Shown here: one piece after another, positions 3,078 through 51,458 of the stretch
Position numbering within the stretch: position 1 is the first letter of the stretch
Layout of the letters: each line of letters opens with the position of its first letter
NCBI GenBank assembly: GCA_027490225.1
Contig: JAIXYK010000053.1
Span: forward strand, 1-64,000
Source: Bacteroidota bacterium
Lineage (GTDB): Bacteria > Bacteroidota > Bacteroidia > M30B66
Reading direction: 5' to 3'
Length of the DNA: 64,000 nt
Position numbers and translations under genes: made by a program
The notes under the pieces: model-generated
Told to the model about the DNA's origin: nothing
The model's database searches: none
Seen by the model: the letters and a program-made list of their open reading frames with translations, nothing else

Positions 3078-3206
3078 GCTAACAGCAGTTTTGCGATAAG
3101 TGGGCATTGTAGCGTGTTTGAGGCTTTTGTTTTTCTTGATATATTCGTCTAATCTAAAGCATTTCGTTCCCCAATTCCGCTCATCGCAAAGCTGCGGAAC
3201 GTTACC
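3078..3206. repeat. attC-like imperfect palindrome 2
   Basis: 129 bp, the same length as palindrome 1. The left arm is GCTAACAGCAGTTTTGCGAT. The right arm is ATCGCAAAGCTGC, a GGAAC bulge, then GTTACC. The stem pairs almost throughout and again has the unpaired GGAAC on the right arm only. The loop sequence is unrelated to palindrome 1. It begins 8 nt after the stop of the upstream T9SS gene. Confidence 0.55.
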
Positions 3207-3285
3207 CGTAAGTTATGTCCTGTCTTCTCCTGAAAAAGTCTGACTTGACAGAATTATCACTTTGCCAAGTCAGACAACTTAAACC

Positions 3286-4182
3286 TTATTTCTTAAAAAA
3301 TTGTGAATGCTGACCAACCCAAGCCTCAATAGATGTCATCTTAACGGGTAGTTTTTCTAAGACCTCTGACATATTCGGAGAAAACATAATAGGATATTGT
3401 TTCGTATCAGCTATCTGTTGGTATACTTCTTCAGCACCTTTTCCAGCACCCGCTCCAAATAGCCCATCTAAAATTTGACCAAATTCTTTAGGTGGCATTG
3501 GGAAGTAAGAAATTTTTTGGTTCAAACCGATTGAAAATTTTTCGGCTAATTGATTACCTGTGAGGTTTTCAATTCCACTCACTAGAAAACTTTCATCAGC
3601 TAGTTCAGGTTTAAAAATTGCTTCTGCAACAAATGCTGCTACATCTTGAGTTGCTATCCAACCAATAGGCATTTCTTCAGGAGTTGGGTATGCTACCTTT
3701 TTGTCATTGATTACAAAAGGAGCTGTCCAGGGACCTAAAAGATTTTCGGCATAAACTGAGGGTTGAACAATAATGAAGGGCAATCCGCTTTCTTTTAAAT
3801 AGTTGGCAATATCAATTCTAATATCCATCGCAGGATTACCAATTTTAACAGGAAGAATAAAACCACTAGAATTCCAAACCAACAATTTTACATTATTGAC
3901 AACGGCTGCATCAATCGCATTTTTGGCATAAGCAAAACCATCAATAGGATTTGCAAGAAAGAATGGCACTAACAAAGAAATAACATCCACACCTTTAGAA
4001 ATTTCTTTCAATCGGTTTGCTTCTGACATATCCGCTAACAAAGCCGTTGCTCCCGCATGGGTTAACTTAAGCAAGTTGCTTTCTGTGTGTGTAGTTGCAT
4101 AAACCTCAGCACCTTTGTTCAATAGTGCTTTAATGACAGGAAATTGTTGAGAGCCTGCCGCTCCGTAAACTAGTACTTTCAT
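3286..4182 (-). CDS. NmrA-like NAD(P)-binding oxidoreductase, probable quinone/electrophile reductase
   Basis: 298 residues from the ATG at 4182. This start puts the nucleotide-binding motif VYGAAGSQQFPV at residues 5-16, as the family requires; the longer open frame to 4305 would add an unlikely 41-residue leader and run through the shared promoter. The protein is an atypical short-chain dehydrogenase of the NmrA/QorB type (Rossmann fold, no catalytic Tyr-Lys pair evident). It is divergent from an HxlR regulator (4296) with a large dyad between them. In bacteria this pairing usually means redox- or quinone-inducible control of the reductase. The substrate cannot be deduced from sequence. Confidence 0.8.
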   Translation of the reverse strand: MKVLVYGAAGSQQFPVIKALLNKGAEVYATTHTESNLLKLTHAGATALLADMSEANRLKEISKGVDVISLLVPFFLANPIDGFAYAKNAIDAAVVNNVKLLVWNSSGFILPVKIGNPAMDIRIDIANYLKESGLPFIIVQPSVYAENLLGPWTAPFVINDKKVAYPTPEEMPIGWIATQDVAAFVAEAIFKPELADESFLVSGIENLTGNQLAEKFSIGLNQKISYFPMPPKEFGQILDGLFGAGAGKGAEEVYQQIADTKQYPIMFSPNMSEVLEKLPVKMTSIEAWVGQHSQFFKK

Positions 4183-27461: not shown

Positions 27462-29414
27462 TCAGTATTCGAGTTTCTCTACAAAATACATATCAATTTC
27501 ACCTTTTCCCTTTGCAGAAACTTTACCCCGGTGTTCGCATTGGAATTTATCTTTCACTAATTCATATGTGGTGCTGCTTATATTCACTTTTCCTGGAGCC
27601 CCTGAAGATTCCATTCTAGAAGCGGTGTTAACAGTATCACCCCAAATATCATAAGCGAATTTTTTTACGCCAACAATTCCAGCAACAACAGGCCCAGTGT
27701 GAACACCAATACGAATTTCGAAGAATGGTAATCCTTCAGCAATTTTTCGGGCTTTCCCATCTTCAATAAATTGCCGTATTTCAAATGCTGCATTCACAAT
27801 ATCAACGGCATGTGTTGCGCTTGGCATAGGTATTCCACCTGCTGCCATATAAGCATCACCAATTGTTTTTATTTTTTCAATTCCGTATTTCTCCATTATT
27901 CTGTCGAATGCAGAAAAACACTCATGAATATCTCTTACCAATTCCTTTGGTGTCAACTTCTCAGACATGGCAGTAAAACCTTTGAAATCTGTAAACAATA
28001 CCGAAACTTCATTGAATAGTTTGGCTTCTGCTTCCCCTTTTTCTTTTAATTCTTCGGCTACTTCTTCTGGAAGAATATTCAGTAATAATTCATCACTTCT
28101 TTTCTTCTCCTTCCCAATTCTGTTGCGTTGTTTAAAAAACACTGCTGCAAACAAAAGAACAATTGCAAAACCTCCTATAAAACTATTTCTTACAATTTTT
28201 TGTCGGGTAATTTCTTGTTCTTGGATTTCTTTATCTTTGGTTAAAAGGCTGATTTTCGATTCTTTTTTCTCAATATCAAAATTCAATTGTAATAATCCGA
28301 GTTTTTTGTCCGTATTATTGTTGTAAATACTGTCTTTTATTGAAATTAAGAGATTTTGATATTTGTAAGCACTCGAATAATCTTTTAATTTTCCATAAGA
28401 ATTTGATAGACCTTCATATGCTTCTTTAATTTCTTGTAAAGCATTTAACGTCATTCCTGTATCTACCGCTTCTTTATAAATGTCTACTGCTTTATTAAAA
28501 TCATTTTTAGATTCGTAAGTTTGAGCAAGACCAATAAGCGATTGAACTAAATCTAATTTTAAATCTAATTTTTTCGAGATTTCTATTGCGTTTTTATGAA
28601 CACTGAGTGCTTTATCTAAATTATTCGAACTTGTGTAAACTTTACCCAAATAATTTAAAGCATAAGGCTCACTTTCAGTTCCCCTGCAGGCATTTAATGA
28701 TTCATTAAGATATTTTATGGAAATGTCATAATTTTTCTTTTTAAAATACAACTCTCCTAAATTCATAGAAGTAGTTCCTATTGTATATGAGTCATTAATA
28801 ATTTTACTAAGAAAATTTGCCCGTTCTAAACTCGCTAAAGCCTTGCTAAATGTAGCTTTTTTATTCATGTAAATAGTACCTACATTCGCTAAGCATGTTA
28901 CAATTCTTAGAGTGTCATTTATTTCTTCAGCAATTTTTAATGCCTTTAAATCTAATTCAAGCGATTTAGCATCATCGCCTTCTGTAAAAAAGGCCGAAGC
29001 TTGATTTCCTAAAATATTGGCAATCCCTTTTTTATCTCCAATTTGCTTGTAAATAATTAAAGCATTTTCCCAATTTAAAATTGCTTGTTTATAATCACCT
29101 TTTAAATAGTAAGCAGTACCAATGTATTTGTTGGCTAATGCTTCTCCTTTTTTAAATTTTATCTTTTCTGCTAATGTTTTCGTTCGTGTTGAAATGCTAA
29201 TCGAAGAATCTGTGTTATCATTAAGATAAGACTTACTTAATTCATTCAATAACTCTACCCTTCTTTTTTCGTCAGTAGTTTTTTCTAAAATAACTTTTAA
29301 ACTATCTGTTTCTCCAGCAATTGAATCATTTACCACAATTATTCCCACTAAGAAAACCAACAATAAAAGTGGTAAATAAAACTTGTTGGTCATGCCATTA
29401 TTGTTATTGCGCAA
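27462..29414 (-). CDS. TPR-containing class III adenylate cyclase
   Basis: 650 residues; the ATG 7 codons in (MTNKFYL) is an equally good start. Signal-like or membrane leader, TPR repeats (~40-380), a membrane helix ('SFIGGFAIVLLFAAVFF'), a helical linker ('SDELLLNILPEEVAEELKEKG') and a C-terminal cyclase domain. Metal-binding Asps are in VLFTDFKGF and TIGDAY. Substrate-choosing residues are Lys in KIKTIGD and Asp in YDIWGDTVN, which favour ATP over GTP. The Asn/Arg pair (VNTASR) for catalysis is intact. It should be active and make cAMP in response to a periplasmic TPR signal. It is convergent with the upstream T9SS gene. Confidence 0.92.
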   Translation of the reverse strand: MRNNNNGMTNKFYLPLLLLVFLVGIIVVNDSIAGETDSLKVILEKTTDEKRRVELLNELSKSYLNDNTDSSISISTRTKTLAEKIKFKKGEALANKYIGTAYYLKGDYKQAILNWENALIIYKQIGDKKGIANILGNQASAFFTEGDDAKSLELDLKALKIAEEINDTLRIVTCLANVGTIYMNKKATFSKALASLERANFLSKIINDSYTIGTTSMNLGELYFKKKNYDISIKYLNESLNACRGTESEPYALNYLGKVYTSSNNLDKALSVHKNAIEISKKLDLKLDLVQSLIGLAQTYESKNDFNKAVDIYKEAVDTGMTLNALQEIKEAYEGLSNSYGKLKDYSSAYKYQNLLISIKDSIYNNNTDKKLGLLQLNFDIEKKESKISLLTKDKEIQEQEITRQKIVRNSFIGGFAIVLLFAAVFFKQRNRIGKEKKRSDELLLNILPEEVAEELKEKGEAEAKLFNEVSVLFTDFKGFTAMSEKLTPKELVRDIHECFSAFDRIMEKYGIEKIKTIGDAYMAAGGIPMPSATHAVDIVNAAFEIRQFIEDGKARKIAEGLPFFEIRIGVHTGPVVAGIVGVKKFAYDIWGDTVNTASRMESSGAPGKVNISSTTYELVKDKFQCEHRGKVSAKGKGEIDMYFVEKLEY

Positions 29415-29559: not shown

Positions 29560-32500
29560 TTATTGTTTTATATATCGCAATTCTTGAACCCTAGATTCGC
29601 CTTCAATTCGAATGAGGTATAAACCGCTGGCTTCTTTATCTAAACTTATTGTCATCCTTTCAACACCAATTGGTATAATTTCATTTTTAACCAATTGCCC
29701 GTTGGATGAATATACTTTTAAAGTCTGTTGATAGTCGCTACGAATTGCATCTATCATAAACTGACCATTACCTGGATTTGGATAAACAATCGCTTCGGCT
29801 CCCTCAATTTTCGCAATTTCTTCTTCAGGAGCTTCTCCTTCAATTTTACAAGTAGTAGTGCATATAGAAATACAACGAACACTTGAGCTTCCACAACTAT
29901 TATTTGCTTTAACCCCTACGCTTCCATTAGAAGTTCCGAATTTTACAATAATTGAAGCTGTTCCTTGTCCGCTGGTAATAGTAGCTCCGCTAGGTACTGT
30001 CCAAGTATAAGTTAGGCCACTTATTCCAGTTACAGAATAAGCAACATTTTGTTGATTTCTGCAAACAGTAGTTGGTCCAGATATTATTGATGGAGTAGCA
30101 GGTAAGCGACTTAAACTTAGACATTGTGCAGCACTTGTACCGCAACCATTTACTGCGGCCACAGTAATATTTCCACTTGTAAAGTTTGCAGGTATACTAA
30201 CCGTTATACTGTTACCATTATTTGTAATAATGTTGGCACCTTGTGGTATTGTCCAATTGTAAGAACTTGCATTTGCAACTGCTGCAATTGAATAAGTAAA
30301 TGTACCTCCTCCGCATAGATTGTTGGTTAGTCCAGAAATTGAACCTGGTTTTGAAGGTAAATTTCTGCTCAAAGTTAAGCTGCGTAGAGAACTTTGTCCA
30401 CATCCATTTACAGCACGAACACTTAACGTTCCGCCAGTATATCCTGAACCAAAACTTAAACTAATGCTATTGGTTCCAAGACCAGCAGTAATAGTGGTTC
30501 CAGTAGGAATTGTCCAACTGTATGATGAAGCATTATTGACAGCTGCAACTGAATAAGTAAATACGTCACCAGAACAAGCTTTATTGTTTCCGCTAATGCT
30601 ACCAGGAGTGCTTGGAGTAGAGACGCTTAATGCTAATGATCTTTCAGAACTATTAGCACATGCAGAAATTGCTCGCACTTTAATACTTCCGCCACTAAAA
30701 GTAGAACCTATTAATACTTGAATACTTGTAGTTCCATTTCCATTTGAAATTGTAATACCTGAAGGAGGTGTCCAAGTATATGATGTTGCATTGGCCACAG
30801 CAGCGATTGAGTATGTTACTAAATTACCAGTGCCTCTGAATGCGCATATGTTCACAGGACCAGAAATTGTTCCCGGAGTTGCAGGTGCAGTTCTAGTAAC
30901 TGAAATACTTCTTTGAATTGAAGAGCCACAACCACTCACTGTTACACTCACATTTCCACTGTTAAATGAAGAGGCAAATCTGAAGCTAATAGAAGCAGTG
31001 CCTTGTCCTGTTACATTGGTTGAGCCTGAAGGTAAAGTCCAAACAAATGAACTTGCATTTGTTGTCTGAATCGAATAAGTAGCTATTGTTCCATTGGTTC
31101 CTTGGTGAGGACAAGAGTTTGTAGGACCAGTAATAGCACTTGCAGTTGGAGCAGGTGTTATAGTAAGTTGTAAAATTCTGCTTGTGCATCCATCTTGGAA
31201 ATTGTATGTTCCAGATTGATTGTAAGTTTGGTTGTTTGCAGTCCATGTATAAGTTCCACAAGCTGTTGCTGTAGTTACAACTGGAGCAGGCTCTGTTCCT
31301 GTTACATCCCATTCGCATGATGTAGTATTAAATGTTGCAGTTTGCCAGCATGCCAATCCTGTTGGTTGAGGAGCTTGCGTTCCTGTTACAACCCAAGAAC
31401 AAGAAGTTGTATTGAAAGTGGCAGTTTGCCAACAAGCAAGGCCAGTTGGTTGTGTTGGTTGTGTTCCAATGTTTTGCCATTGACATGTTGTGTTGTTTAA
31501 AACATAATTATCCCAGCAATTTTGAGGTTGAAGTGTTACCGGCTGTCCAAGTTGAATCCAGAAACGAGGAAGTTCCTGGGCTGTACCTGGCCCATTTACA
31601 AATGTTATATTACCAGTAGCTGTGATATCTCCAAATACTCCTGAACTGTTTTTGATATTTTGAGAAACAACCGTGCTATTATTTGCCATGTAGTTTCCAA
31701 AATTAGCTCCATTGATATTTAGATTTTGCACAGTTACACTAGCACCTGTATTTGGAGCATTTACAGCTGCTCCTTGCAAGAATATATTCAAATAATTAAA
31801 TCCTTTGTTAACTAAACTGCTTGATGTAGATGACACTGATTCTCCTGAACCAAATGAGAAGTTGTTATTCCAATCAATAGACCAGGTTGTTGCGCCGGTT
31901 GCAGCATTGTAAGTGAATTTGAAATTACGTGTTTGGCCGTCACCCCAAATTGGGGTACCACTTGGATTTAAGTTTAATCCTACACCATTTGGAGGAGGAC
32001 CAGGATTAGCAGGTGTGAACAATACCGCTTCAAATCCTGAAGCACCCCATCTTGCTCTGGCTTCAACTGAAGGTGAAACTGAAAATAAATCTGTTGTTGC
32101 AATAGGAATAGCAGTTGGACTTACAAAATTTTCCACAGGTTGAGTTCCTGATACTTGCCATGCACAAGATACAGTATTGAAAGTTGCAGTTTGCCAGCAA
32201 GCTAATCCAGTTGGTTGAGGAGCTTGAGTTCCAGTTACATCCCAAGAACACGTTCCTGAATTGAAGGTTGCAGTTTGCCAGCAAGCTAATCCAGTTGGTT
32301 GAGGAGCTTGTGTTCCTGTTATATCCCAAGAACAAGTCTCTGTATTGAAATTTGCGGTTTGCCAGCAAGCTAATCCAGTTGGTTGAGGAGCTTGTGTTCC
32401 TGAAACATCCCATGCACAAGATACTGTATTGAAAGTTGCAGTTTGCCAGCAAGCAAGTCCTGTTGGTTGCTCAGGTTGAGTTCCTGAAATTTCCCAAGCA

Positions 32501-35500
32501 CAAGTATTTTGATTGAAGGTTGAAGATTGCCAGCAAGCAAGTCCTGTTGGTTGAGCCGGTAGAGAAGGCTGGCTAATACTTCCTGAAACTGTAAAAGAAC
32601 AACCGTTGGCATCTGTTACAACAAACGAATAATTACCTGCGGAAACAGTTTTTACACCATCGCCAGTGTAAGGAGCAGTTCCACCTGATGCAATAATGTT
32701 TACAGTAGTGGTTCCTCCGAAGCAAGTAATTGTTCCTTCTTCGGCGATAGCTGTTGGACCAGCTGATACAGTAAGAGTGCCGTTTTCGTAAACTGGGATA
32801 TAATTAGGAACAGAATCCAATTGGACCAAATTTGAAGGAACAATGGTATATGAACCAGGACTTAAATTACCAGGACTAACAGGATTATTATCAGCATCTA
32901 GAATTGTAAAATCAGGACCACTAGCCACTACATTGCTATCTACAGATTCATATTGATAAATAGAATTTGTAAAGGTGTATTCTGGTTGAACTCCTTGACA
33001 ATTTACAGTTTTATCATCTGCTTTTACTGAAAGCGTTTCTGGGGTAATAGTTAAGTTTCCTAAACCATAAGAAATATCAAAATTCTCAGACATTAAAACC
33101 CCAGGTGCAATATACCAATTACCAACAGTTACACCAGTTATCATATTCATTGATGTATAACCTACAATTGAATCATTTTCTAGTAAACCATCCTCGTCAT
33201 CCACAAAATCTAACGAGTCTACAATTAATACTGCATTTTCGTTGCTTTCATCATTAAATGTTGTAGTATTTACTGAACGTTTACCATTTACTGAACGTTT
33301 GCCGTTTACAGAGCGTTTTCCATTAACTGTAGCTTCTCCATTTACAGAACGCTTTCCATTAATTGCAGCACTTCCATTTACAGAACGTTTTCCGTTTACT
33401 GCCAAAGTACCGTTGTAGAAAGTGGCATTTGCAGAATCAACTTGATAATCAAACAAAGATTCTACAGCTAATGGAATATAATCAGTAGTATCATTCACAA
33501 AACCATTTACAGAACGTTTTCCATTTACAGAACGTTTTCCATTAACAGAGCGCTTTCCGCTTGTTAAGAAACTCATATTTGTTAAATCATCACCCGTTAA
33601 AAACCTTCCATTCACTGATCTCTTTCCATCTACTAAAACAACAGCATTAGACATTGTAGATTGATGCTCTGTTTCTAAAGAATCTAAGAAAACAGCCTGA
33701 TCGGCAGGATCTATATTAGTTAAGTCATAAGTGTAATTGAATTTTATTTCTTTTCCTTTTATTGACTCTCCAAATACTAATGTGGTATCTTTAGGTGTAA
33801 CAAGTAGAGGCATTCTAATGATGCTTAACACTCCATCTACAAATTGATAATTATAGAATTCTGATAAAGCTTGAGATTGCGGATTACTTAAATCAGTTAC
33901 AGATGAAGAAGCTCTTCTTAAGTAAAGACCAACACTTGATAATGTAGTTGCAGTAGACGTATAAGTTAAATCTGTTAAACCTAAACTTTCTAATGAAAGC
34001 CCTGTGTTAGCCAATGGAGTTCCATTAATAGTTACACTGACTTCATATGGAGGAATTTTTTCTCCATATTTTTTAACTGCATTATTTACTGTAACTTTTA
34101 CATTCTGAGGAATTGTTCCAAATAAATACAATGAGTCGCTCATTCCACCATCTAAACCATTTGTAGTAATAGAAGGGTTATAAACTGTTAATGGAGGGTT
34201 TCCAAAGAATGGTGGAAGTTGAACAGTTAACTCATTCTCACTAATTACAGTTGCAGGAATAGTATCGTATTGGAAGATTACAGATGCATTTTCATCAAAA
34301 TAATCTCCATTTAATGTGATATTTACAACATCTGTGCCTGGAGTATTTGTGGTATTTTGAGTAGTAAAACCACTAACAATAGGAACTGGATTTGCAAAAG
34401 ATGCTATTGCTGCCTCTCCTTGAATAAAACCAGCACCAGTTAAATCATCTTGGCCATCAGGCCCCATGTCAATTGATGTTCCTTGCAATAAGGCTTTCAT
34501 TTGAGCACTTGAGAAACTTTCACCGTTAAAATATCTTCCTTTAGCTTCTTGCAATAAAGCAGCTAGACCTGCAGCATGTGGCGCAGCAGCTGAAGTCCCA
34601 AAGAAGTTAGGGAATAAGTCTCCATCAATTGCATTTCCTTCCGCAAAACCAAAATCTACAGTAGTATTTACTCCGTTTGGAGCTACAAAATCAGGTTTGT
34701 TTCTATTTACCCCATTTATTAGAACTCCTCCTTTTGAAGAGAAAGAAGCAACAGTAGGAGTATTGACACCATAAGCAGGAGTGTTTTTATATAAAACTGC
34801 ACCAACTGCCATTGCACTCTCAGCATTTGCTTGGGCTAAGATTGTACCTTGACCTTGGTTGAACTCAACTATGCTACCATCACCTCTGAAAATTACATAT
34901 TTGAACCGAACATTCTCTGTACCTCTTTTTCTAGTAACGATAATTTTTGCATTCACGTTTGATTCAACAACAAAAGGAAGAACTTCCAATGGATCACCAC
35001 CTATGTTATTTCTGTTGAATCCGAATTTACGGGCACCTGAATCTTCAATCAAATAAATATCTAAATCGTTTGATGCTCCTTCTGATTGTCCTAATGAATA
35101 AAAATCATCTTCCCATTGCAATGCAATAGTATAAGTACCTCTTGTTAATGAAAGTTTTTGGTAAACTTCTCCTCCTCCAAAGTCATGCGCTAAGCCAGTA
35201 AAAGTAGCTGGGGCTGGTACAGGAGAGAAAATTCCTTCGTAAGACTTTTGTCCGAAGTTTCCAGCTGAAGTGAAATAGTTAACTCCTGTTGCAGAAACAT
35301 CTTCTACAGCTTGAGCAATTACACCGTCTTGGAAAAATGGCTCAGTAATATAAGTGATGTCATCTACTATAACTTTGCACCCTAAATCGCGCAATTCTTT
35401 AATTCCATCTGCAAAATTTCCTGCACTAATGAATCCTGATTTGAAGTATAGTTGCGCATTTGGTGCAACGTCGTGCACAATTTGTAACATCGCTCGTCCC

Positions 35501-38500
35501 TCATCCGTAGCTTTTCCGTATGGGTATTCTTCTAAAACTGTAACTGGTAAAGGATAATTTGGATTATCTATACCTGGTAAATCTTCGTTTTCTACGTCTC
35601 TTCCTGCTGGATCATTTGCTTTGGTATTGTAACTATCTGACAATACACCTACTTTAATTCCGTTTCCTGATACTTCCCAGCCTTGTTTTACTCTGTCTGT
35701 AGTTTGCGCAGTATCTCCTTGTGTAACGGTTAAACCAGTTCGAGGAAACGCACTTGCAATTGGAGAATAATAAGGTCTAACATAATTGATTAAAGTAGCT
35801 AAAGAGTCTAACTTTCTAAGTTTTGAAATTGGGTAAAATCCTGTGATAATGAGCGTAGAGTCTCCATTGTCAATAATATCAGTTAAACCATATTCTGGAG
35901 TTTGTAATAATGCTAATAAACCCTGGTATTCATTAATATTCGAGATGATTTCTATCAATACTTTTGTTTCTTCGGGTGTATTACCATCTTGTGTAACAAA
36001 AATATTGTTAACGTTATTTGTGTCCACAACAGAAGCTGGGAATAAGAAAAGCTGTGTTAACTCAGAACCAATGAGGTTACTGATTGTATCATTAACTGGT
36101 GGTTGGTAATACGGGATAATACAATCCGTAATTATAGCTTGTACGCTAACTGATGCATTACATCCATTTGCATCTGTAACTTGGTAATTATAATTTCCTG
36201 GAGGAAGATTTAATGTATCATCACCAGTAAATACGTATGGAGGAAGTCCATTAGTGACTACTAAATCAACATCGCCAGTCGAAGCATTCACCTCATTACA
36301 TATGAATAACGTGTTACCAGTTGTAGTAGAAAGTGAAATATTACATGTTACAAGATTATCAATATTTCCATCGCAATTGTCATCTATGCCATTTACAATT
36401 TCTGCAGCAGAAGGGTTTTGTGCTGAATTGTAATCATTACAATCTGAACCAACTGTAGTTAAACCAGCAATTGGTGAGCATGAGTAAATTGGATTTCCAA
36501 CATTCCCAAATCCATCTGCGTCAAAATCTGGGTAATATATGTCTGCAGGAGTAACTGTAATGTTTTGAGTGCAAGTTGTAGCTAAATTATTAATGTCAGT
36601 TGCTGTCCAAGTTACAGTGGTTGTTCCTATTGGGAAACAAGCTGGTGCGTCATTGGTAATGGTAACACTTGAACAATTACTAGTAGCAGTTGCAACAGGG
36701 CTTCCAACGATGATAAGACCAATTGCATTGCTTGGTATGTTATCGTAGTTTTTAGGTTGACAGAAGAAATCGAGTGTTACAAATTGCGTTAGATAATATA
36801 CACCTGGTTGAGTTGGAGCTGTGAAACTACCTCCGAAAAATGAATTTGTGTATCCATTGGATATATTGTCTTCGCACTGTAATCTATTTGAAGTTGCCCC
36901 AATTCCTATTGAAGATTGTACTACACAACCCGGGCAAAATCCTGTTATTGGATCGAAAGCTACCGAAAGGTCATATGCCAAATTCACTTGACTACCTGGA
37001 GCAACAGTAGCTTGGTTGCTACCTCCATTAATGGAGACATTGGAATAAGTAATAAAACGATCAAAAGTTTGCAATACTATAGGTGAAGCAATCGGCTGTA
37101 TGTTAAAGGAAACATCGCAATTTCCTAACGCGTTTGATTGACAAATTGTAATGTCTGAAGGGCAGTTTGTAATAATTGGCGGTTCTGTGCAAGTAACAGA
37201 GCAATCAAATTCAAATGAAGAAGAAGCGTCTTTACCAATGCTCCAATTGGAATTCATATAAGCAACTTCATTTACACCAATACAAGAAAGGTTTGGGTTG
37301 CCAGTTGCGTCAAAATTTATAAAATTTAAATTGTTTGTGTTTTTAACATTTAAACTCTGAAGCTGGTTATTGTTAATATAAAGTTCAATTAATGAATTAA
37401 GATTTGAGACGTTTAAATCTGTAATATTGTTATTTCTACATCTTAAAAATTGCAAATTAGTGTTGTTTGAAACATTCAAATTCGTCAAATTATTGAAATC
37501 AACGTTTAAATCACTTAAATTAGTTAAACTTGAAACATCAATATTTGAAAGGTTATTGTTTTGTAAATTAAGCTGACTTAAGAAGTTAAATGCAGAAAGA
37601 TTAACATCAGTTAAATTATTAGTACTTAAGTTGAGGAAATTGATGTTTGGAGGAATAGCAGCATTAATTGATGCAATTTGATTGTCTGATGCATTTAATC
37701 CAAATAGATTGGTAAATGCCTCAATGCCTGTAAGGTCAGTAATATTTTGTCCTGAAACATCTATAGAGTAGTCTATAGTTTGAGCTTCTGAACATTCAAT
37801 TTGTCCATTATCATTCGCATCTAATCCAGGAATAGCAAGCAATGCATTTTTGAAGTTTACATCTGGAATGTTTACAATACAAATCGGGGGAGGACAATTT
37901 GTACCTGTTACAACTCCACCTGGAGCAACCCAATTTGAGCTTGTTCCGTCTAAAGCAAAGCTTTGAAGTGTTCCATTGTAACCATTTCCACTTCCATCTA
38001 TTAAAGCTAATTCTGTTGGGTTAGCAATGCCATCAAAACCTTGATTGAAATGATAAGCAGCGGCTAAATCTGTTTGAGGTGTAATTTCGCAATTCAAATT
38101 AGCTAGAATTTCAGATTCAGAAATAACGCGCGTCCAAACCCTTAACTCATCAATATTACCATCGAAATTATTATTTCCGTAGGCTGCATCACCTATGTAC
38201 ATATCAGTACTTCCATCTCCAAGGAATGAAGACGGAGAAATATCAGATGTTATTAAAACACCATCTCTGTAAATTTTCCTTTCTTTGGTTACATCATCGA
38301 AAGTACAAGCCCAATGGTGCCAGTTGAAATCTGGTGTAACAGCAATTCCTAAATCGTTTTGATAAAAATTAAACATAAAGAAATTGCCGTTTGGAGCAAA
38401 TCCAATATGCAGCGATTGGTTTTGGCCAAAATTTGGTCCTTGAGCAAAAGCTATATTATAGTTTGCGTTACCAGACTGTTTTAACCACATTTCAACAGAG

Positions 38501-41500
38501 AATGATTTATTAGAAAGATCAACTCCGTTGTTTACAATTATTTTGTCATCTGATCCATCAAAGTTTAATGCGGCACCTGGATTTGAAACTGAACCTGCTT
38601 CTCCAATTTGAAAATCACCGAATGAATTAAGTCCATTAGCCCTAACAACAATAACTTGATTGTTTTGACTTGGTAATGACCAATTCGGTGCATTATACTT
38701 TGCAACAATAAAATTTGTAAAATTTGCACCAGGATCCATATCTCCGGTTTCAGAGAAGATAAGATCGGCATAATTATAAGACAAACCATTGGTTGCTTCT
38801 ACATGCCAGAAACGATTTAAACTTTTATTAGGATCAATTCCTGAGGTTAGTATTTCTGGATGATCTGTTCCGGTAGTATTTACTAAAACAGCTCCTGCAG
38901 TAGTTGCATCAATGTATAAAATTATTGGGGCTCTGACAGTTGCATCTCCTACTTCTATATTTAATCCTTGAAGACCTGGAGATATTCCAACTTCTAAATT
39001 ACCATTCACCCAGCTATTGCCGCTGGTTCCTACACTACAGCCTGGGCTTAAAGTTAATTTGTTAGATCCTGTTGTAATGATACCATTAAGAAATGTTATT
39101 GCATTGTTAACTGTTAAATCACCATTTAAGCTAAGGCCTCCTCCAAAGTTGTTGATTTGTAAATTTTGAATGATACCATTAGAACCACTATATGTTTGAT
39201 TATTTAAACCAGAAAAGATGAAAGTGTTTCCATTAATTTGTCCTTCATTGAATACTTCTGCTCCAGTGAATTCGAGATCCACACCAGCATTAATACGACC
39301 TGCTAGACCAATATCTAAAAATCCATTTAATTCTATTGGTTGCTGGTTGATATTTAAAAATCCTCCAACATCAATTTGTCCAGAAGAAGTTGCATATAAA
39401 ACACCTCCGCTGTTAAGAGTCAGAGAAGTGCTTGGATTAATGCTCAACTGACCGAAATTTATAAATTGAACAGATGCACCACTTTGACCGGAGAAAATTG
39501 TATTTGCATTGATATTTGTTGTACCAAAGTTGTTGATAAACGCATTTGTTGTAGCGTTCAGTTCATCTGCATCATTAATATTGAAAACAGCGTTAGCTTC
39601 AATTCTTACTATTAAATCTCCTCCAATTGATTTACCATTGAAACCAATCATGTTTAAGACTCCTCCACCTAAAACTTGTAAAGTAGCACCACCATTTCCA
39701 CCTGATATGGAAGTAAAATCGCCCCAGTTAAATGTTGCTCCATCATTGGTAACAACATTTCCATTTATTGTAATTTCAACTGTACCAATGGTAACAGTAC
39801 CGTTATTCTGTAAATCTATGCCCGGTCCATCGTTAATTACAATAGAGTTTTCAGACCCTAGAAAAAGACTAGCTCCAGGTTCAACTGATGTTTCATCAAT
39901 TGTAGCATTTGTCATCAATGTAACATTGTGCGGATTTCTAATTACAATTGTTCCGTCAGTAGAATTTGGAGCTTGAGAAGCTGGCACCCAGTTGCATCCA
40001 TCATATGTTTCCCAAGTTGCAGGGTCGTTCCATAGACCGCTTTGGAAGCTTCGGTATTGGTTAGTTGGAGTACAAGCTATTTCGCCAATTTGATAATAAC
40101 TTACTCCACTCGTAACGGTTCTTACCCTTAGGGAAGTTGCGTCTTGAAAGGTAACCGTGCCAAGTGACCAATTACCACCATTTAATTCTCTGGCTAAGAA
40201 ATTAGTAGCATTAGCTCCAGGGTCCAAATCATTTAAAGGCCAAATAAACCTGGTTTGCACGTCTGTGTTTCCTACACCTACTTCTACACTCCAAAATCTA
40301 TTTACACTTTTTAATGGATTAAGACCAGAACCTGCAATATTTGGATTATCTCCGTCTGTCGTTGAAACTGTAACACCTCCATTACCCAATGAATTGAAAA
40401 CAGTTACAAGAGTTGGTCGGTAGCCGATTTCGTCTCCAATACGGTAACTTATTGTGTTTGTTCCCACTGGGAAATTCATTTGCAGGTTACCGTTTACATA
40501 CCATTCTGTTCCCGAAAAATTCTGAACTGTAGCGGTTGGAACTACAATAATTTTGTTAGAACCTGTATTGATATTACCATTGGTAAATGTTAAGATAAAG
40601 TTTATGGTTTGATTTCCTCCTAAATTAACACCCGAAACATTATCAATTGTTAAATATGAAACTGAACCAACACCGCTTAATGTTTGGGGTGAAACACCGT
40701 TAAAAGTTAGTGCATTATTGGTAACATTTCCATTATTGGTAAATTCACTACCAGTGAAGTTAATGTTATGACTTCCCGATAATGTAGCTCCAGTTGAAAT
40801 ATTATATGTACCAGAATGTGTTCCTATAGTATTGTTTAATCTTAATTCACCTGAATTGATTTCTGTGAGACCTGCTTGATTGAAGTTTACATTCGCATCA
40901 AAAGTTGTAATTCCATTTGTTTTATTAATTGTACCAGTATTGTTGAATGTTAACAGCGCTCCAGAAGTTTGATTAGTAAATCCAGCAGAAGCAGAAATGT
41001 TAAATGTACCTGTATTGTTTATTGTGGCATTAGTAGCGGCTAAGTTATAAACTATATTGCCAGTTGTAGACCAGTTAATTGTTCCAGCGTTGTTAATTGT
41101 TCTTTCGTCTTGAAGAATTGAAACATTGCCAGAGCCATTGATATTTAAAATTGCACCTGCTTGAATATTGGTACTACCTAAAGCCCTCATAGTGCCAGAA
41201 GTCCAGTTCACAGTAGTTCCAGTTTCGAAATTAAGATTTCCACCACCTTGAATGATTCCGTTTGAAGTAATCGTTGTAACAAGAGTTCCAGAAATATTGG
41301 TATTAGTCCCTTGTATTCTCCAACCAGCGCCATTTATTGTTACAGATCCGTTGCCGCTAATCGAATTGGTTCCTGAAAAGTCTGTATCTGAGCCAGCAAG
41401 GAAATCTAAAAATGCGTTGTTGGTAATTGAAGAACCATTTTCCATATTAAAATCTGTACTTGCAATGTTTAAAGTACCTGATTGCAAAGACATGGTTCCT

Positions 41501-42255
41501 TGGTTATTAAATATTACTCCTGCTTGAATGGTGCTGTTACTTGTAATTGATTTAATAAAAGTACCACTTGGAGTATTCGTAAAAGTAAATGTACCTCCAC
41601 TGGTATTGCTTAAAGCCGAAGATGTATTAAAATTGAATGTTCCACTATTAGTGATGCTTGTAGCAGAACCCGCAGAACTTGTAAGTATCTGACCAGCTCC
41701 AGAATAATTTACTGTACCTCCTGAATTATTTGTAATGGAAGCATTATTATTAAATCCTTGCGTTCCGCCTATACTAGTGATGTTTAAAGTTCCACCAGAA
41801 TTAACTGTTGTAGCCACATTGCCATTTAAATTTCCTGCATTCCAATTAAAGATACCACCATTACCTACTACAATTTCTCCTGTTCCAGCAACCGTTTGGG
41901 AGTTTGAAACATTAAAAGTTCCAAAAACTTGCACTTCTGTGAAGGAAACATCGTTAGATAATGTTAATTGATTTGTTCCAGCAATTCCCAAGGTAGCACC
42001 ATTTTCAACCACGATTTGATTTGCAGTGATTGAACTAGAAATGGAAACGGAATGAGGTGCTCTGATTCTTATCTCGTTATCCGAAATCGTCGGAGCAATT
42101 GCTGCTGGTAGCCAAACAGCACCATTGTATCTCTCCCAAGTAGAGGGCGAATTCCAGATTCCGCTTGTAATGCTGCGATAATTGCCTGCAATCTGAGCAT
42201 TAGAAATGAAAGAACAAAACAATACTAAATTGAGAAGTAGAAGTTTAAACTTCAT
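29560..42255 (-). CDS. Giant T9SS-exported multidomain adhesin/protease
   Basis: 4231 residues. Signal peptide (ending SNAQ, ~21). Two N-terminal parts (~24-700 and ~731-1200) each begin 'RSxxSGxWNxPxTWExYxG' and continue as Asn/Gly-rich beta-solenoid repeats. Then a LamG-like domain (~1228-1400), leucine-rich repeats (~1462-1650), a HYR-like region, a MopE-like Asp-rich motif (~1905-1970), and a subtilisin-fold protease (Asp2207, Glu2252, Ser2555; see findings). After that come MBG-type repeats (~2715-3110) containing nine KRSVNG motifs, seven 28-residue 'QPTGLACWQ' repeats split into two blocks (~3235-3640), Ig-like repeats (~3700-4125) and a type A sorting domain (YPNPGNGQFMI). It is likely a surface adhesin with a processing protease. 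A terminator follows the stop. Confidence 0.93.
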   Translation of the reverse strand: MKFKLLLLNLVLFCSFISNAQIAGNYRSITSGIWNSPSTWERYNGAVWLPAAIAPTISDNEIRIRAPHSVSISSSITANQIVVENGATLGIAGTNQLTLSNDVSFTEVQVFGTFNVSNSQTVAGTGEIVVGNGGIFNWNAGNLNGNVATTVNSGGTLNITSIGGTQGFNNNASITNNSGGTVNYSGAGQILTSSAGSATSITNSGTFNFNTSSALSNTSGGTFTFTNTPSGTFIKSITSNSTIQAGVIFNNQGTMSLQSGTLNIASTDFNMENGSSITNNAFLDFLAGSDTDFSGTNSISGNGSVTINGAGWRIQGTNTNISGTLVTTITSNGIIQGGGNLNFETGTTVNWTSGTMRALGSTNIQAGAILNINGSGNVSILQDERTINNAGTINWSTTGNIVYNLAATNATINNTGTFNISASAGFTNQTSGALLTFNNTGTINKTNGITTFDANVNFNQAGLTEINSGELRLNNTIGTHSGTYNISTGATLSGSHNINFTGSEFTNNGNVTNNALTFNGVSPQTLSGVGSVSYLTIDNVSGVNLGGNQTINFILTFTNGNINTGSNKIIVVPTATVQNFSGTEWYVNGNLQMNFPVGTNTISYRIGDEIGYRPTLVTVFNSLGNGGVTVSTTDGDNPNIAGSGLNPLKSVNRFWSVEVGVGNTDVQTRFIWPLNDLDPGANATNFLARELNGGNWSLGTVTFQDATSLRVRTVTSGVSYYQIGEIACTPTNQYRSFQSGLWNDPATWETYDGCNWVPASQAPNSTDGTIVIRNPHNVTLMTNATIDETSVEPGASLFLGSENSIVINDGPGIDLQNNGTVTIGTVEITINGNVVTNDGATFNWGDFTSISGGNGGATLQVLGGGVLNMIGFNGKSIGGDLIVRIEANAVFNINDADELNATTNAFINNFGTTNINANTIFSGQSGASVQFINFGQLSINPSTSLTLNSGGVLYATSSGQIDVGGFLNINQQPIELNGFLDIGLAGRINAGVDLEFTGAEVFNEGQINGNTFIFSGLNNQTYSGSNGIIQNLQINNFGGGLSLNGDLTVNNAITFLNGIITTGSNKLTLSPGCSVGTSGNSWVNGNLEVGISPGLQGLNIEVGDATVRAPIILYIDATTAGAVLVNTTGTDHPEILTSGIDPNKSLNRFWHVEATNGLSYNYADLIFSETGDMDPGANFTNFIVAKYNAPNWSLPSQNNQVIVVRANGLNSFGDFQIGEAGSVSNPGAALNFDGSDDKIIVNNGVDLSNKSFSVEMWLKQSGNANYNIAFAQGPNFGQNQSLHIGFAPNGNFFMFNFYQNDLGIAVTPDFNWHHWACTFDDVTKERKIYRDGVLITSDISPSSFLGDGSTDMYIGDAAYGNNNFDGNIDELRVWTRVISESEILANLNCEITPQTDLAAAYHFNQGFDGIANPTELALIDGSGNGYNGTLQSFALDGTSSNWVAPGGVVTGTNCPPPICIVNIPDVNFKNALLAIPGLDANDNGQIECSEAQTIDYSIDVSGQNITDLTGIEAFTNLFGLNASDNQIASINAAIPPNINFLNLSTNNLTDVNLSAFNFLSQLNLQNNNLSNIDVSSLTNLSDLNVDFNNLTNLNVSNNTNLQFLRCRNNNITDLNVSNLNSLIELYINNNQLQSLNVKNTNNLNFINFDATGNPNLSCIGVNEVAYMNSNWSIGKDASSSFEFDCSVTCTEPPIITNCPSDITICQSNALGNCDVSFNIQPIASPIVLQTFDRFITYSNVSINGGSNQATVAPGSQVNLAYDLSVAFDPITGFCPGCVVQSSIGIGATSNRLQCEDNISNGYTNSFFGGSFTAPTQPGVYYLTQFVTLDFFCQPKNYDNIPSNAIGLIIVGSPVATATSNCSSVTITNDAPACFPIGTTTVTWTATDINNLATTCTQNITVTPADIYYPDFDADGFGNVGNPIYSCSPIAGLTTVGSDCNDYNSAQNPSAAEIVNGIDDNCDGNIDNLVTCNISLSTTTGNTLFICNEVNASTGDVDLVVTNGLPPYVFTGDDTLNLPPGNYNYQVTDANGCNASVSVQAIITDCIIPYYQPPVNDTISNLIGSELTQLFLFPASVVDTNNVNNIFVTQDGNTPEETKVLIEIISNINEYQGLLALLQTPEYGLTDIIDNGDSTLIITGFYPISKLRKLDSLATLINYVRPYYSPIASAFPRTGLTVTQGDTAQTTDRVKQGWEVSGNGIKVGVLSDSYNTKANDPAGRDVENEDLPGIDNPNYPLPVTVLEEYPYGKATDEGRAMLQIVHDVAPNAQLYFKSGFISAGNFADGIKELRDLGCKVIVDDITYITEPFFQDGVIAQAVEDVSATGVNYFTSAGNFGQKSYEGIFSPVPAPATFTGLAHDFGGGEVYQKLSLTRGTYTIALQWEDDFYSLGQSEGASNDLDIYLIEDSGARKFGFNRNNIGGDPLEVLPFVVESNVNAKIIVTRKRGTENVRFKYVIFRGDGSIVEFNQGQGTILAQANAESAMAVGAVLYKNTPAYGVNTPTVASFSSKGGVLINGVNRNKPDFVAPNGVNTTVDFGFAEGNAIDGDLFPNFFGTSAAAPHAAGLAALLQEAKGRYFNGESFSSAQMKALLQGTSIDMGPDGQDDLTGAGFIQGEAAIASFANPVPIVSGFTTQNTTNTPGTDVVNITLNGDYFDENASVIFQYDTIPATVISENELTVQLPPFFGNPPLTVYNPSITTNGLDGGMSDSLYLFGTIPQNVKVTVNNAVKKYGEKIPPYEVSVTINGTPLANTGLSLESLGLTDLTYTSTATTLSSVGLYLRRASSSVTDLSNPQSQALSEFYNYQFVDGVLSIIRMPLLVTPKDTTLVFGESIKGKEIKFNYTYDLTNIDPADQAVFLDSLETEHQSTMSNAVVLVDGKRSVNGRFLTGDDLTNMSFLTSGKRSVNGKRSVNGKRSVNGFVNDTTDYIPLAVESLFDYQVDSANATFYNGTLAVNGKRSVNGSAAINGKRSVNGEATVNGKRSVNGKRSVNGKRSVNTTTFNDESNENAVLIVDSLDFVDDEDGLLENDSIVGYTSMNMITGVTVGNWYIAPGVLMSENFDISYGLGNLTITPETLSVKADDKTVNCQGVQPEYTFTNSIYQYESVDSNVVASGPDFTILDADNNPVSPGNLSPGSYTIVPSNLVQLDSVPNYIPVYENGTLTVSAGPTAIAEEGTITCFGGTTTVNIIASGGTAPYTGDGVKTVSAGNYSFVVTDANGCSFTVSGSISQPSLPAQPTGLACWQSSTFNQNTCAWEISGTQPEQPTGLACWQTATFNTVSCAWDVSGTQAPQPTGLACWQTANFNTETCSWDITGTQAPQPTGLACWQTATFNSGTCSWDVTGTQAPQPTGLACWQTATFNTVSCAWQVSGTQPVENFVSPTAIPIATTDLFSVSPSVEARARWGASGFEAVLFTPANPGPPPNGVGLNLNPSGTPIWGDGQTRNFKFTYNAATGATTWSIDWNNNFSFGSGESVSSTSSSLVNKGFNYLNIFLQGAAVNAPNTGASVTVQNLNINGANFGNYMANNSTVVSQNIKNSSGVFGDITATGNITFVNGPGTAQELPRFWIQLGQPVTLQPQNCWDNYVLNNTTCQWQNIGTQPTQPTGLACWQTATFNTTSCSWVVTGTQAPQPTGLACWQTATFNTTSCEWDVTGTEPAPVVTTATACGTYTWTANNQTYNQSGTYNFQDGCTSRILQLTITPAPTASAITGPTNSCPHQGTNGTIATYSIQTTNASSFVWTLPSGSTNVTGQGTASISFRFASSFNSGNVSVTVSGCGSSIQRSISVTRTAPATPGTISGPVNICAFRGTGNLVTYSIAAVANATSYTWTPPSGITISNGNGTTSIQVLIGSTFSGGSIKVRAISACANSSERSLALSVSTPSTPGSISGNNKACSGDVFTYSVAAVNNASSYSWTIPTGTTITAGLGTNSISLSFGSGYTGGTLSVRAVNGCGQSSLRSLTLSRNLPSKPGSISGLTNNLCGGGTFTYSIAAVANASSYNWTIPQGANIITNNGNSITVSIPANFTSGNITVAAVNGCGTSAAQCLSLSRLPATPSIISGPTTVCRNQQNVAYSVTGISGLTYTWTVPSGATITSGQGTASIIVKFGTSNGSVGVKANNSCGSSSVRCISICTTTCKIEGEAPEEEIAKIEGAEAIVYPNPGNGQFMIDAIRSDYQQTLKVYSSNGQLVKNEIIPIGVERMTISLDKEASGLYLIRIEGESRVQELRYIKQ
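31265..32553 (-). repeat. Cys/Trp 28-residue repeats in the giant protein, two blocks
   Basis: Five tandem ~84-bp units (about 32121-32553) and two more (about 31265-31460) encode 'QPTGLACWQxATFNxxxCxWxVxGTQ', each with two Cys and two Trp. Between the blocks lie a ~190-residue beta domain and one degenerate unit (QPQNCWDNYVLNNTTCQWQN). The regular Cys pair suggests one disulfide per unit. Confidence 0.8.
33266..33632 (-). repeat. Nine KRSVNG motifs within MBG-type repeats
   Basis: The translated minus strand has nine copies of KRSVN(G) at about residues 2876-2991: one alone, three in tandem, two singles, three in tandem. The DNA copies use different synonymous codons (AAA/AAG, CGT/CGC/AGA, TCT/TCA, GTA/GTT/GTG), so the peptide rather than the DNA is conserved. 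Confidence 0.85.
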
Positions 42256-48841: not shown

Positions 48842-50053
48842 TTACCTCTCCAAAAAATACATATCCATTTCGCCTTTGTTTTTGGCTTGCATTTTACCGC
48901 GGTGGGTGCAGGTGAAATTGGATTTGATAGTCTGATAAGTGGTTTCGCTGATATTGATTTTTCCTGGTTCGCTGCATTGTTCGATGCGCGCGGCAGTGTT
49001 AACGGTATCGCCCCAAATGTCGTAGGCGAATTTTTTCAGACCTACAATTCCGGCCACAACAGGGCCAGAATTAATTCCAATTCTGATATCGAAAAATGGC
49101 TGGTTATTTTTGGTACATTCTACTTTGTAATTATTTACAAATGCTTGGATGGCCAATGCTGCAGAAGCCACGTTAAAAGCGTGTTTTTCGTCTTTTATAG
49201 GTAATCCGCTTACTGCAATGTAGCCATCGCCAACTGTTTTAATTTTTTCGAGGTGATGTTCGGTAATAATATTATCGAAATGAATAAAATAATAGTTTAA
49301 CAAATTAACCAGCTCTTTTGCAGTAAGGGTTTCGCTCACTTTTGTGAAGTTTACAAAATCGGTAAATAATACCGTTACATTTTCAAAATACTTGGCTTCT
49401 GCTGTGCCTTTGTATTTTAATTCTTCGGCTGTTTCGGCAGGTAGAATATTTAATAAAAGGTCGTCTGATTTTTTCTTTTCGGCTGTTAATTCGCTGGTTC
49501 TTTCAATTACTTTTTGTTCTAATATTTCATTTTGCTGGAGAATCATTTTCTCTTTATCAGCCATCAATTCAATCACATTTTGTTGAGCGGCATTTTTTTC
49601 TGTGAGCGCTATTTCTTTTTCTTTTAATGTTTCAATTAATTTAATTTTTGCTTCTTTTCCTTGCAAAAATACTTTGAAATCGTTGATGGCTTTTACCATT
49701 GTAGTTTCCAAATCGGTCATGTCTATTGGTTTAACTACAAAGTCGAAAGCGCCGCGGTTCATTGCGGTTCTGATGTTTGAAATATCGCTGTAAGCAGAAA
49801 CTACAACTGTTTTTAATTCTAAGTTATTTTCATTGATACGGTTAAGCAATGTAAGGCCATCCATTACAGGCATATTAATGTCTGTAAGCATAATATTAAG
49901 GTCATTATCGGCAATTAATTTTGCTAATGCTTCTTCGCCATTTAATGCAAATTCGAAATGATATTCACCTTCACGTATTTTGCTTCTGAATTTCTGGGTT
50001 ATAAGTACCTGAAGATCTGGTTCATCATCTACAATTAATATTCTTTGGGCCAT
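48842..50053 (-). CDS. Receiver-adenylate cyclase fusion
   Basis: 403 residues. Receiver domain with acidic pair (DDE, 9-11) and phospho-acceptor Asp58 (MLTDINMP). Long coiled coil (~130-195) and linker 'DDLLLNILPAETAEEL'. Class III cyclase domain (~225-403) with metal Asp232 (LFTDF) and Asp276 (VGDGY). Lys272 and Asp345 (YDIWGDT) specify ATP, and Asn352/Arg356 are catalytic. All needed residues are present, so phosphorylation probably controls cAMP output. It lies 9 nt after a single-domain receiver gene and downstream of a histidine kinase, all on the minus strand. A cytosolic location is expected. Confidence 0.93.
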   Translation of the reverse strand: MAQRILIVDDEPDLQVLITQKFRSKIREGEYHFEFALNGEEALAKLIADNDLNIMLTDINMPVMDGLTLLNRINENNLELKTVVVSAYSDISNIRTAMNRGAFDFVVKPIDMTDLETTMVKAINDFKVFLQGKEAKIKLIETLKEKEIALTEKNAAQQNVIELMADKEKMILQQNEILEQKVIERTSELTAEKKKSDDLLLNILPAETAEELKYKGTAEAKYFENVTVLFTDFVNFTKVSETLTAKELVNLLNYYFIHFDNIITEHHLEKIKTVGDGYIAVSGLPIKDEKHAFNVASAALAIQAFVNNYKVECTKNNQPFFDIRIGINSGPVVAGIVGLKKFAYDIWGDTVNTAARIEQCSEPGKINISETTYQTIKSNFTCTHRGKMQAKNKGEMDMYFLER

Positions 50054-50486: not shown

Positions 50487-51458
50487 TCACAAGGGCAAAT
50501 TAACTGAAAACTCTGTAAAATCATTCAATTCACTTTTTACTTTTAAATCCCCACCATGTGATTTTATAATATCATAACTCAAACTTAATCCTAAACCAGT
50601 GCCTTTTCCTGCGGGTTTGGTGGTGAAGAAGGGTTCAAAGATTTTTTCTTGGATGTTTTGAGCAATTCCATTTCCATTATCTTTTATTGAAATAGAAATT
50701 GTATTATTTATTTGTTTTGTTGAGAGTGTTACTGATGGTTTATAATTGAAAGTTTTGTCTTCAAGTTCCCGCTCTCTTACAGCATCGAATGCATTGTTGA
50801 TGAGGTTTAAAATAACACGGGAAATATCTTGCACTACGCAATTGACTTTTGGAAAATTAGAATCTAAGTTTTTTACCATTTCGCAATTGAAACCGGCATC
50901 AGTGGCACGTTTACCATGAAACGAAAGGTTGAGATATTCTTCGCACAATTGATTGATGTCGGTAAGTTGTTTTTCGCCAGCGCCGCTGCGGGAATGTTGC
51001 AGCATATTTTTTACAATGCTGTCGGCACGTTTGCCATGTTCGTTAATTTTTTGAAGGTTGATTTCGAGGTCTGCTAATATTTCATTGCGTTCTTCTTCTG
51101 AATTGGAGGTTTTAAATTCTTTGATAAGTTCGTTGCTCAATTCACTGAAATTATTTACAAAGTTGAGTGGGTTTTTTATTTCGTGGGCAATACCTGCAGT
51201 GAGCGCTCCGAGTGATGCGAGTTTTTCTTGTTGAACGAGTTGAGTTTGGGTAGATTTAAGTAATTCAAATGTTGCTTTAGTTTCATCGTTTAAAATTTTT
51301 AGTTTGCCATTTGTTTTTTGTTTAAGATAAATAGCAAATCCTAAAGTAATGGCAAATAATCCTAGTAACGCAGTAATTCCTAATAATAAAAAATTGTTCT
51401 TTTTACTATTGGTTTGCTGTTCCTTCAGAAGAGCAATTCCAATTGCATCTTCTTGCAT
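50487..51458 (-). CDS. Histidine kinase, C-terminal part of a split TPR kinase
   Basis: 323 residues starting at an ATG directly after a 10-A tract. One membrane helix (~22-43), coiled coil, HisKA with His92 (TAGIAHEIKNPLNF) and HATPase (NLINNAFDAV; DNGNGI; GKGTGLGLSLSYDI). It lacks its own sensor: the TPR frame 51406-52785 reads into this one if a single A is skipped (…EVEKK then MQEDAIGIALL). The predicted joined protein is about 770 residues, the architecture seen in the other TPR kinases of this window. It could also be translated separately from its own ATG. Its kinase domain nearly duplicates that of 53789-55126. Confidence 0.88.
   Translation of the reverse strand: MQEDAIGIALLKEQQTNSKKNNFLLLGITALLGLFAITLGFAIYLKQKTNGKLKILNDETKATFELLKSTQTQLVQQEKLASLGALTAGIAHEIKNPLNFVNNFSELSNELIKEFKTSNSEEERNEILADLEINLQKINEHGKRADSIVKNMLQHSRSGAGEKQLTDINQLCEEYLNLSFHGKRATDAGFNCEMVKNLDSNFPKVNCVVQDISRVILNLINNAFDAVRERELEDKTFNYKPSVTLSTKQINNTISISIKDNGNGIAQNIQEKIFEPFFTTKPAGKGTGLGLSLSYDIIKSHGGDLKVKSELNDFTEFSVNLPL

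Follow-up and report, generated by a model that had tools for sequence, protein, structure and literature searches.

Lineage-private repeat words in a giant protease-like protein of Bacteroidota, and their linkage to a TPR sensor gene, suggest a peptide-recognition system

The window analysed here, the whole 64,000-nucleotide stretch of contig JAIXYK010000053.1 from a Bacteroidota bacterium, carries on its reverse strand a giant open reading frame followed by a gene for a TPR sensor. The short repeated peptide studied here, hereafter the word, lies within the giant frame, and the features are as follows:

29560-42255, (-) strand: giant open reading frame, 4231 aa, from the ORF call with Pfam and NCBIfam matches
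34405-35556, (-) strand: S8/sedolisin-like protease domain (DEGRAM ... GTSAAAPH), catalytic Ser at residue 2555, from Pfam Peptidase_S8
33016-33813, (-) strand: MBG_2-like domain (residues 2815-3080) whose insertions hold the words, conserved across about 60 loci
33607-33624, (-) strand: word cluster 1, one KRSVNG and then a degenerate unit, RFLTGD
33502-33555, (-) strand: word cluster 2, three tandem KRSVNG
33265-33405, (-) strand: word cluster 3, (T)LAVNG KRSVNG SAAING KRSVNG EATVNG KRSVNG KRSVNG KRSVNT, eight unbroken hexapeptide units
27462-29414, (-) strand: sensor gene, 650 aa, next in line on this strand, its open frame starting 73 bp after the giant frame

The 4231-aa protein combines Laminin_G_3, LRR, S8-like protease and MBG_2 domains, the word array, PKD_6 repeats and a T9SS type A sorting tail. 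The tail scores above the cutoffs of both sorting-domain models (TIGR04183, 35.3 bits against 23; PF18962, 34.1 bits against 27), which identifies the protein as T9SS cargo. An earlier note on this DNA had placed the words in an MBG-type setting, and the array does sit in an MBG_2-like domain. By sequence resemblance this domain appears MBG-like rather than a full MBG_2 member: its match to PF18676 covers two stretches (E=2e-4) at 22.2 bits against a curated cutoff of 25, and while MBG_2 adhesins share the domain that hosts the inserts, their 72-position family model has no word-bearing loops. Pfam Cementoin, the transglutaminase-substrate repeat of trappins, gives a sub-threshold match over the array (residues 2830-3080, E=5e-5); we rejected a relationship to the trappin hexapeptide, the score being below cutoff and the V-x-G hexapeptides being taken as a chance resemblance. 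Past the MBG domain, at residues ~3170-3620, the same frame holds another repeat, QPTGLACWQTATFNTxSCxWxVTGTQ, which also occurs in a relative of the same family (G004, locus L007).

Nine copies of KRSVN, eight of them followed by G, occupy window positions 33265-33624 (-), residues 2878-2996, starting at residues 2878, 2901, 2907, 2913, 2956, 2968, 2980, 2986 and 2992 and thus falling into runs of one, three and five. The first copy lies 323 residues past the protease serine. Our count in the frame 29560-42255 (-) agrees with the nine copies claimed earlier, as do the offset (given as about 320 residues) and, to within a few bases, the range (given as 33266-33632). Word boundaries reflect our choice of register. 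A nine-copy repeat of this kind is far beyond chance, and a degenerate codon pattern found no KRSVNG elsewhere in the 3.77-Mb genome (a reversed control pattern gave 0 matches); two further matches to the pattern encode KSSVNG and KRTVNG.

The earlier note held that synonymous codons vary freely among the copies and that the peptide is kept by selection, not by recent DNA slippage. Codon mismatch among the KRSVN copies is indeed near the expectation from the gene's usage (0.44 versus 0.51), although the variation is not entirely free: eight of the nine copies use CGT or CGC for Arg, where the remainder of the gene does so at a frequency of 0.21 (binomial P=2.8e-5). This bias, together with three copies that are identical across all five codons, shows that the KRSVN copies descend from one DNA unit. 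The claim of selection is borne out. In the 408 word codons compared across seven pairs of close orthologues, 176 changes were silent and 3 altered the amino acid; the 1975 codons of the domain outside the words gave 624 and 262 (Fisher P=2e-20), a contrast somewhat biased toward conservation since word columns were picked by consensus match. These counts show strong purifying selection on the words within lineages. Codons of close orthologues also match far better between same slots than between different slots (e.g. 0.95 versus 0.60 and 0.86 versus 0.54), so the slots are not being homogenised now, and together with the codon test this comparison rules out recent slippage.

Other giant proteins with this domain were recovered by a class-wide search, and scanning genome contigs yielded 42 Bacteroidota loci (L023-L064), among them L038 of the cultured Daejeonella oryzae and L050 of the cultured Flavihumibacter soli. 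Broken contigs of metagenome-assembled genomes account for many of the loci used here. Aligned homologues retain the MBG_2-like domain and three word clusters, usually of 2, then 3, then 5-8 units, and the first word lies 313-346 residues past the serine wherever both are recognised. The word itself is homogeneous within a lineage and different between lineages, all copies changing together. Core words, hand-assigned from the most frequent k-mers, include K[QA]AVNG in the nearest relatives of the window and RRVVNG in the same family; RALVN[GA], RAIVN[GA], RPLVN[GA], KGLVNG, KSIINA, RVLVNA and others elsewhere in Bacteroidota; and, in distant members, KVVTNA, GRVVTS, PRVITN, GIPLVN, RGTALVN, GSRGIAN (period 7), GKSIVISN (period 8), GLSVIN, QRVIAS, GRILSN, QRAVVS, QRAIAS, GKIVTN, GKSIVN and ARALAN. 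The lineage of the window has swapped its word wholesale, since its repeat identity to locus L024 is 0.61 at a flank identity of 0.65, against about 0.9 at similar flank identity for most pairs among L023-L028. Asked whether the motif accompanies the DEGRAM protease, a check that the earlier note had proposed, a class sample of 395 genomes gave the protease in 19 and the word domain in 18 of these (17 by profile, G355 by inspection); words were absent only from G243, the most distant of the 19. The KRSVNG string, by contrast, is private to the lineage of the window.

Several genomes hold two or three word-protease genes, and these paralogues tend to share one word. At flank identities of 0.4-0.5, an identical core word was found in 7 of 11 same-genome pairs, compared with 7% of 939 cross-genome pairs. 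A permutation of partners over 14 genomes gave P=5e-6 for word sharing, and for the 11 diverged pairs core identity was 0.87 versus 0.58 when shuffled (P=2.5e-5) at flank identities of 0.47 matched and 0.46 shuffled, all P values being approximate because the genomes are not fully independent. Two exceptions were seen: G419 holds two paralogues with unrelated words, and the third of three copies in G250 differs. Codon identity of the shared word is near the usage expectation in G397 (one pair), G398, G404 and G405, and is raised in G336 and G415. This last observation, like the Arg codon that most copies in the window still have in common, would be expected if concerted evolution were largely neutral, with recombination spreading a unit whose codons then drift. 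Against that explanation stand the scarcity of amino-acid changes beside freely varying silent sites and the four genomes with near-usage codon identity; the data already contradict it as the only cause, and overall we consider it very improbable, though a recombination step probably spreads new words. A word that is near-frozen within a lineage, replaced between lineages and common to diverged paralogues points to either one recognising partner per genome or copies that must match each other.

One such partner could be the protease in the same chain. Its match to Peptidase_S8 (PF00082; E=1e-16, 61.6 bits) covers the C-terminal half only. Among homologues Ser2555 is invariant and Glu2252 and His2261 of the DEGRAM region are nearly or fully so, while the N-terminal half does not align to Pfam. 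The DEGRAM Glu, invariant here, may occupy the position of the catalytic His of subtilisins; given this and the unmatched N-terminal half, kexin-like specificity cannot be taken for granted. Processing at KR-S steps by a kexin-like protease, as suggested earlier, does not hold as a conserved property, for among the words listed only those of the window (KR) and G004 (RR) are dibasic; the equivalent step is RA, RP, KG, KQ, KV or RV elsewhere, and GIPLVN and GLSVIN have no basic residue. A calcium-binding turn, another role suggested earlier, finds no conserved acidic residues in the words to support it. As the words abut without spacers, they define no clear cleavage site. In this respect they differ from the fungal KEX2-processed repeat proteins (KEPs), which include alpha-type pheromone precursors and whose words are released by KEX2 (PMC6339444). 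Both are secreted precursors with many near-identical short words, but the array here occupies an insertion in a folded domain of a bacterial T9SS protein with its own protease, and its dibasic step is not conserved. A broader version, in which the words are cleavage or docking sites of any kind for the cis-encoded protease and follow its specificity, would account for the near-constant presence of the protease in the same chain at near-fixed spacing. It is nevertheless quite unlikely, as paralogues with diverged proteases and flanks have a common word, which points to a partner in trans, and as the protease activity is itself putative.

A candidate partner in trans lies next door. The window sensor comprises an N-terminal hydrophobic segment, TPR repeats (TPR_12, E=4e-31), one TM segment and a class III adenylate/guanylate cyclase (Guanylate_cyc, E=6e-58), as judged from Pfam and hydropathy, a layout that would place the TPR part outside the cytoplasm, in the periplasm. 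Of the 37 loci whose contigs run on for 600 bp or more downstream, a TPR sensor is the next same-strand gene in 24, the window included, usually within 200 bp; with Pfam run on example sensors, these comprise 19 cyclases, 3 histidine kinases (L045, L056 and L064) and 2 cut by contig ends. The linkage extends to the distant word lineages G307, G328, G384, G360, G375, G419, G249 (two loci), G397 and G315, and cannot be put down to chance, because such cyclases (PF00211 proteins) number only 1-6 in each of the ten genomes checked. G355 has its cyclase upstream on the same strand, and the wordless protease homologue of G243 has no such neighbour. The remaining 13 of the 37 loci lack an adjoining sensor, some of them being second copies. 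A sensor-less paralogue shares the word of the sensor-linked one in G198, G375, G404 and G398, as do C121 and C58 of G249, and in G198 a single cyclase gene comes after two tandem genes that carry an identical word. L032 and L047 are tandem word-protease genes on one contig with the same word and then one TPR-cyclase gene. L189 (G315) has a word gene with two related words (GHPLAN, GGRALAN) ahead of two consecutive TPR-cyclase genes. Also near the giant gene, at window positions 48842-50053 and 50487-51458, are a second class III cyclase with a response regulator and a histidine kinase.

We compared divergence of the sensor parts with that of the carrier across 18 loci. TPR divergence tracks that of the MBG flank (r=0.88), against r=0.35 for the cyclase domain of the same polypeptide (difference 0.53, bootstrap 0.30-0.72), a contrast that is no more than suggestive, since conservation is also higher in the cyclase. 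The partial correlation of TPR with the word, given flank and cyclase, is only 0.11 and not significant (P=0.15), and the two genes could be linked for the sensing of the entire protein, not of the word. The linkage is also what a surface ligand or adhesion motif leaves unexplained. Under that alternative the word would bind an external target, a polysaccharide or partner cell whose change drives word divergence, in keeping with T9SS cargo that bears lectin-like and PKD_6 domains; we judge it distinctly unlikely.

The main rival supposes that the copies match each other. Stacking of copies within and between paralogues, as a beta-solenoid or amyloid-like ladder, would require all of them to match, and the adjoining sensor would be merely regulatory. 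The words are beta-branched and mostly end in Asn, and their homogeneity within proteins, sharing between paralogues and strong purifying selection all suit such stacking. Word length, on the other hand, is mostly 6 but can be 7 (GSRGIAN) or 8 (GKSIVISN), which is hard to reconcile with a rigid hexapeptide beta-helix. We rejected a rigid left-handed beta-helix on this ground: the array resembles the hexapeptide repeats of that fold in its six-residue period with V-N-G, yet the strict period is broken at a homologous position, with 7 in G375 and 8 in G250, and there is neither a match to a solved structure nor a confident fold. Neither Foldseek against the PDB nor a profile search of its sequences returned anything significant. 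AF2 models from 40 sequences gave pLDDT of about 80-90 for the MBG core and about 25-40 for the insert (model residues 81-218), while 7 sequences gave pLDDT 41. The predicted lack of structure speaks against stacking, albeit from an alignment of only 40 sequences, and is weakly suggestive of flexible loops. Stacking alone also does not explain the sensor linkage, and we regard it as unlikely.

We favour, with a probability of about 0.42, the reading that the private word is a recognition element for a partner in trans, most likely the TPR ectodomain of the adjoining sensor, which is the obvious candidate, and that it would serve species-specific self-sensing. About 9-13 copies would be displayed on flexible loops inserted in an MBG_2 domain fused to a T9SS-exported subtilase-like protease. 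The TPR superhelix of a periplasmic sensor domain would be bound either by the multivalent loops or by proteolytically released word peptides, and binding would set a cyclic-nucleotide or phosphorelay output. A narrower form is more doubtful, namely that the secreted protease carries a multi-copy, species-private signal that is released and then read by the periplasmic TPR sensor of the neighbouring gene through its cyclase or kinase output, with a single word in use by all or most of the carrier paralogues in a genome.

RRNPPA receptors are built of TPR repeats, and receptor and peptide genes are adjacent. In these quorum-sensing systems of Bacillota and phages, the TPR superhelices bind short peptides (PMC6458997, PMC11343458), as in Rap/Phr with tandem pheromone propeptides (PMC11343458) and arbitrium AimP/AimR (PMC6458997). 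Short private peptides, in some propeptides in several copies, are common to both arrangements, a likeness drawn without a claim of homology. RRNPPA pairs, however, join an intracellular receptor with a ligand from a small secreted propeptide, whereas the carrier here is a giant 4231-aa protease and the TPR part, set between a hydrophobic segment and the TM, appears extracytoplasmic and fused to a cyclase or histidine kinase. Neither KRSVNG nor six other word strings were found in the literature searched, which gave no description of the word; by title and abstract, matches on the MBG domain look unrelated, and none that combines Bacteroidetes with TPR, cyclase, T9SS or pheromones concerns this system. 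Word and linked sensor thus suggest an undescribed peptide-recognition system. The interpretation in the earlier note is borne out in part; that words are private to lineages and common to paralogues, and that a sensor gene adjoins, did not figure in it.

If the word is a ligand, it would belong to a widespread system of species-specific signalling or self-recognition in Bacteroidota. Even without such a role, the word is a clear-cut example of coordinated protein evolution: it changes wholesale between lineages, is near-frozen within them and is common to diverged sister genes that encode it with different codons. Such behaviour calls for either a partner in trans or a requirement that the copies match each other. 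Arrays of similar grammar also occur in archaeal proteins on Thermoplasmatota/Euryarchaeota contigs (L065-L073), as long [KR]G[LMA][VI]NG repeats, e.g. GRGLVNGRGLVNG. A TM helix and an 'IDG-DW' domain follow them closely and zinc-ribbon or TPR regions often precede them; given this other context, the arrays are possibly convergent.
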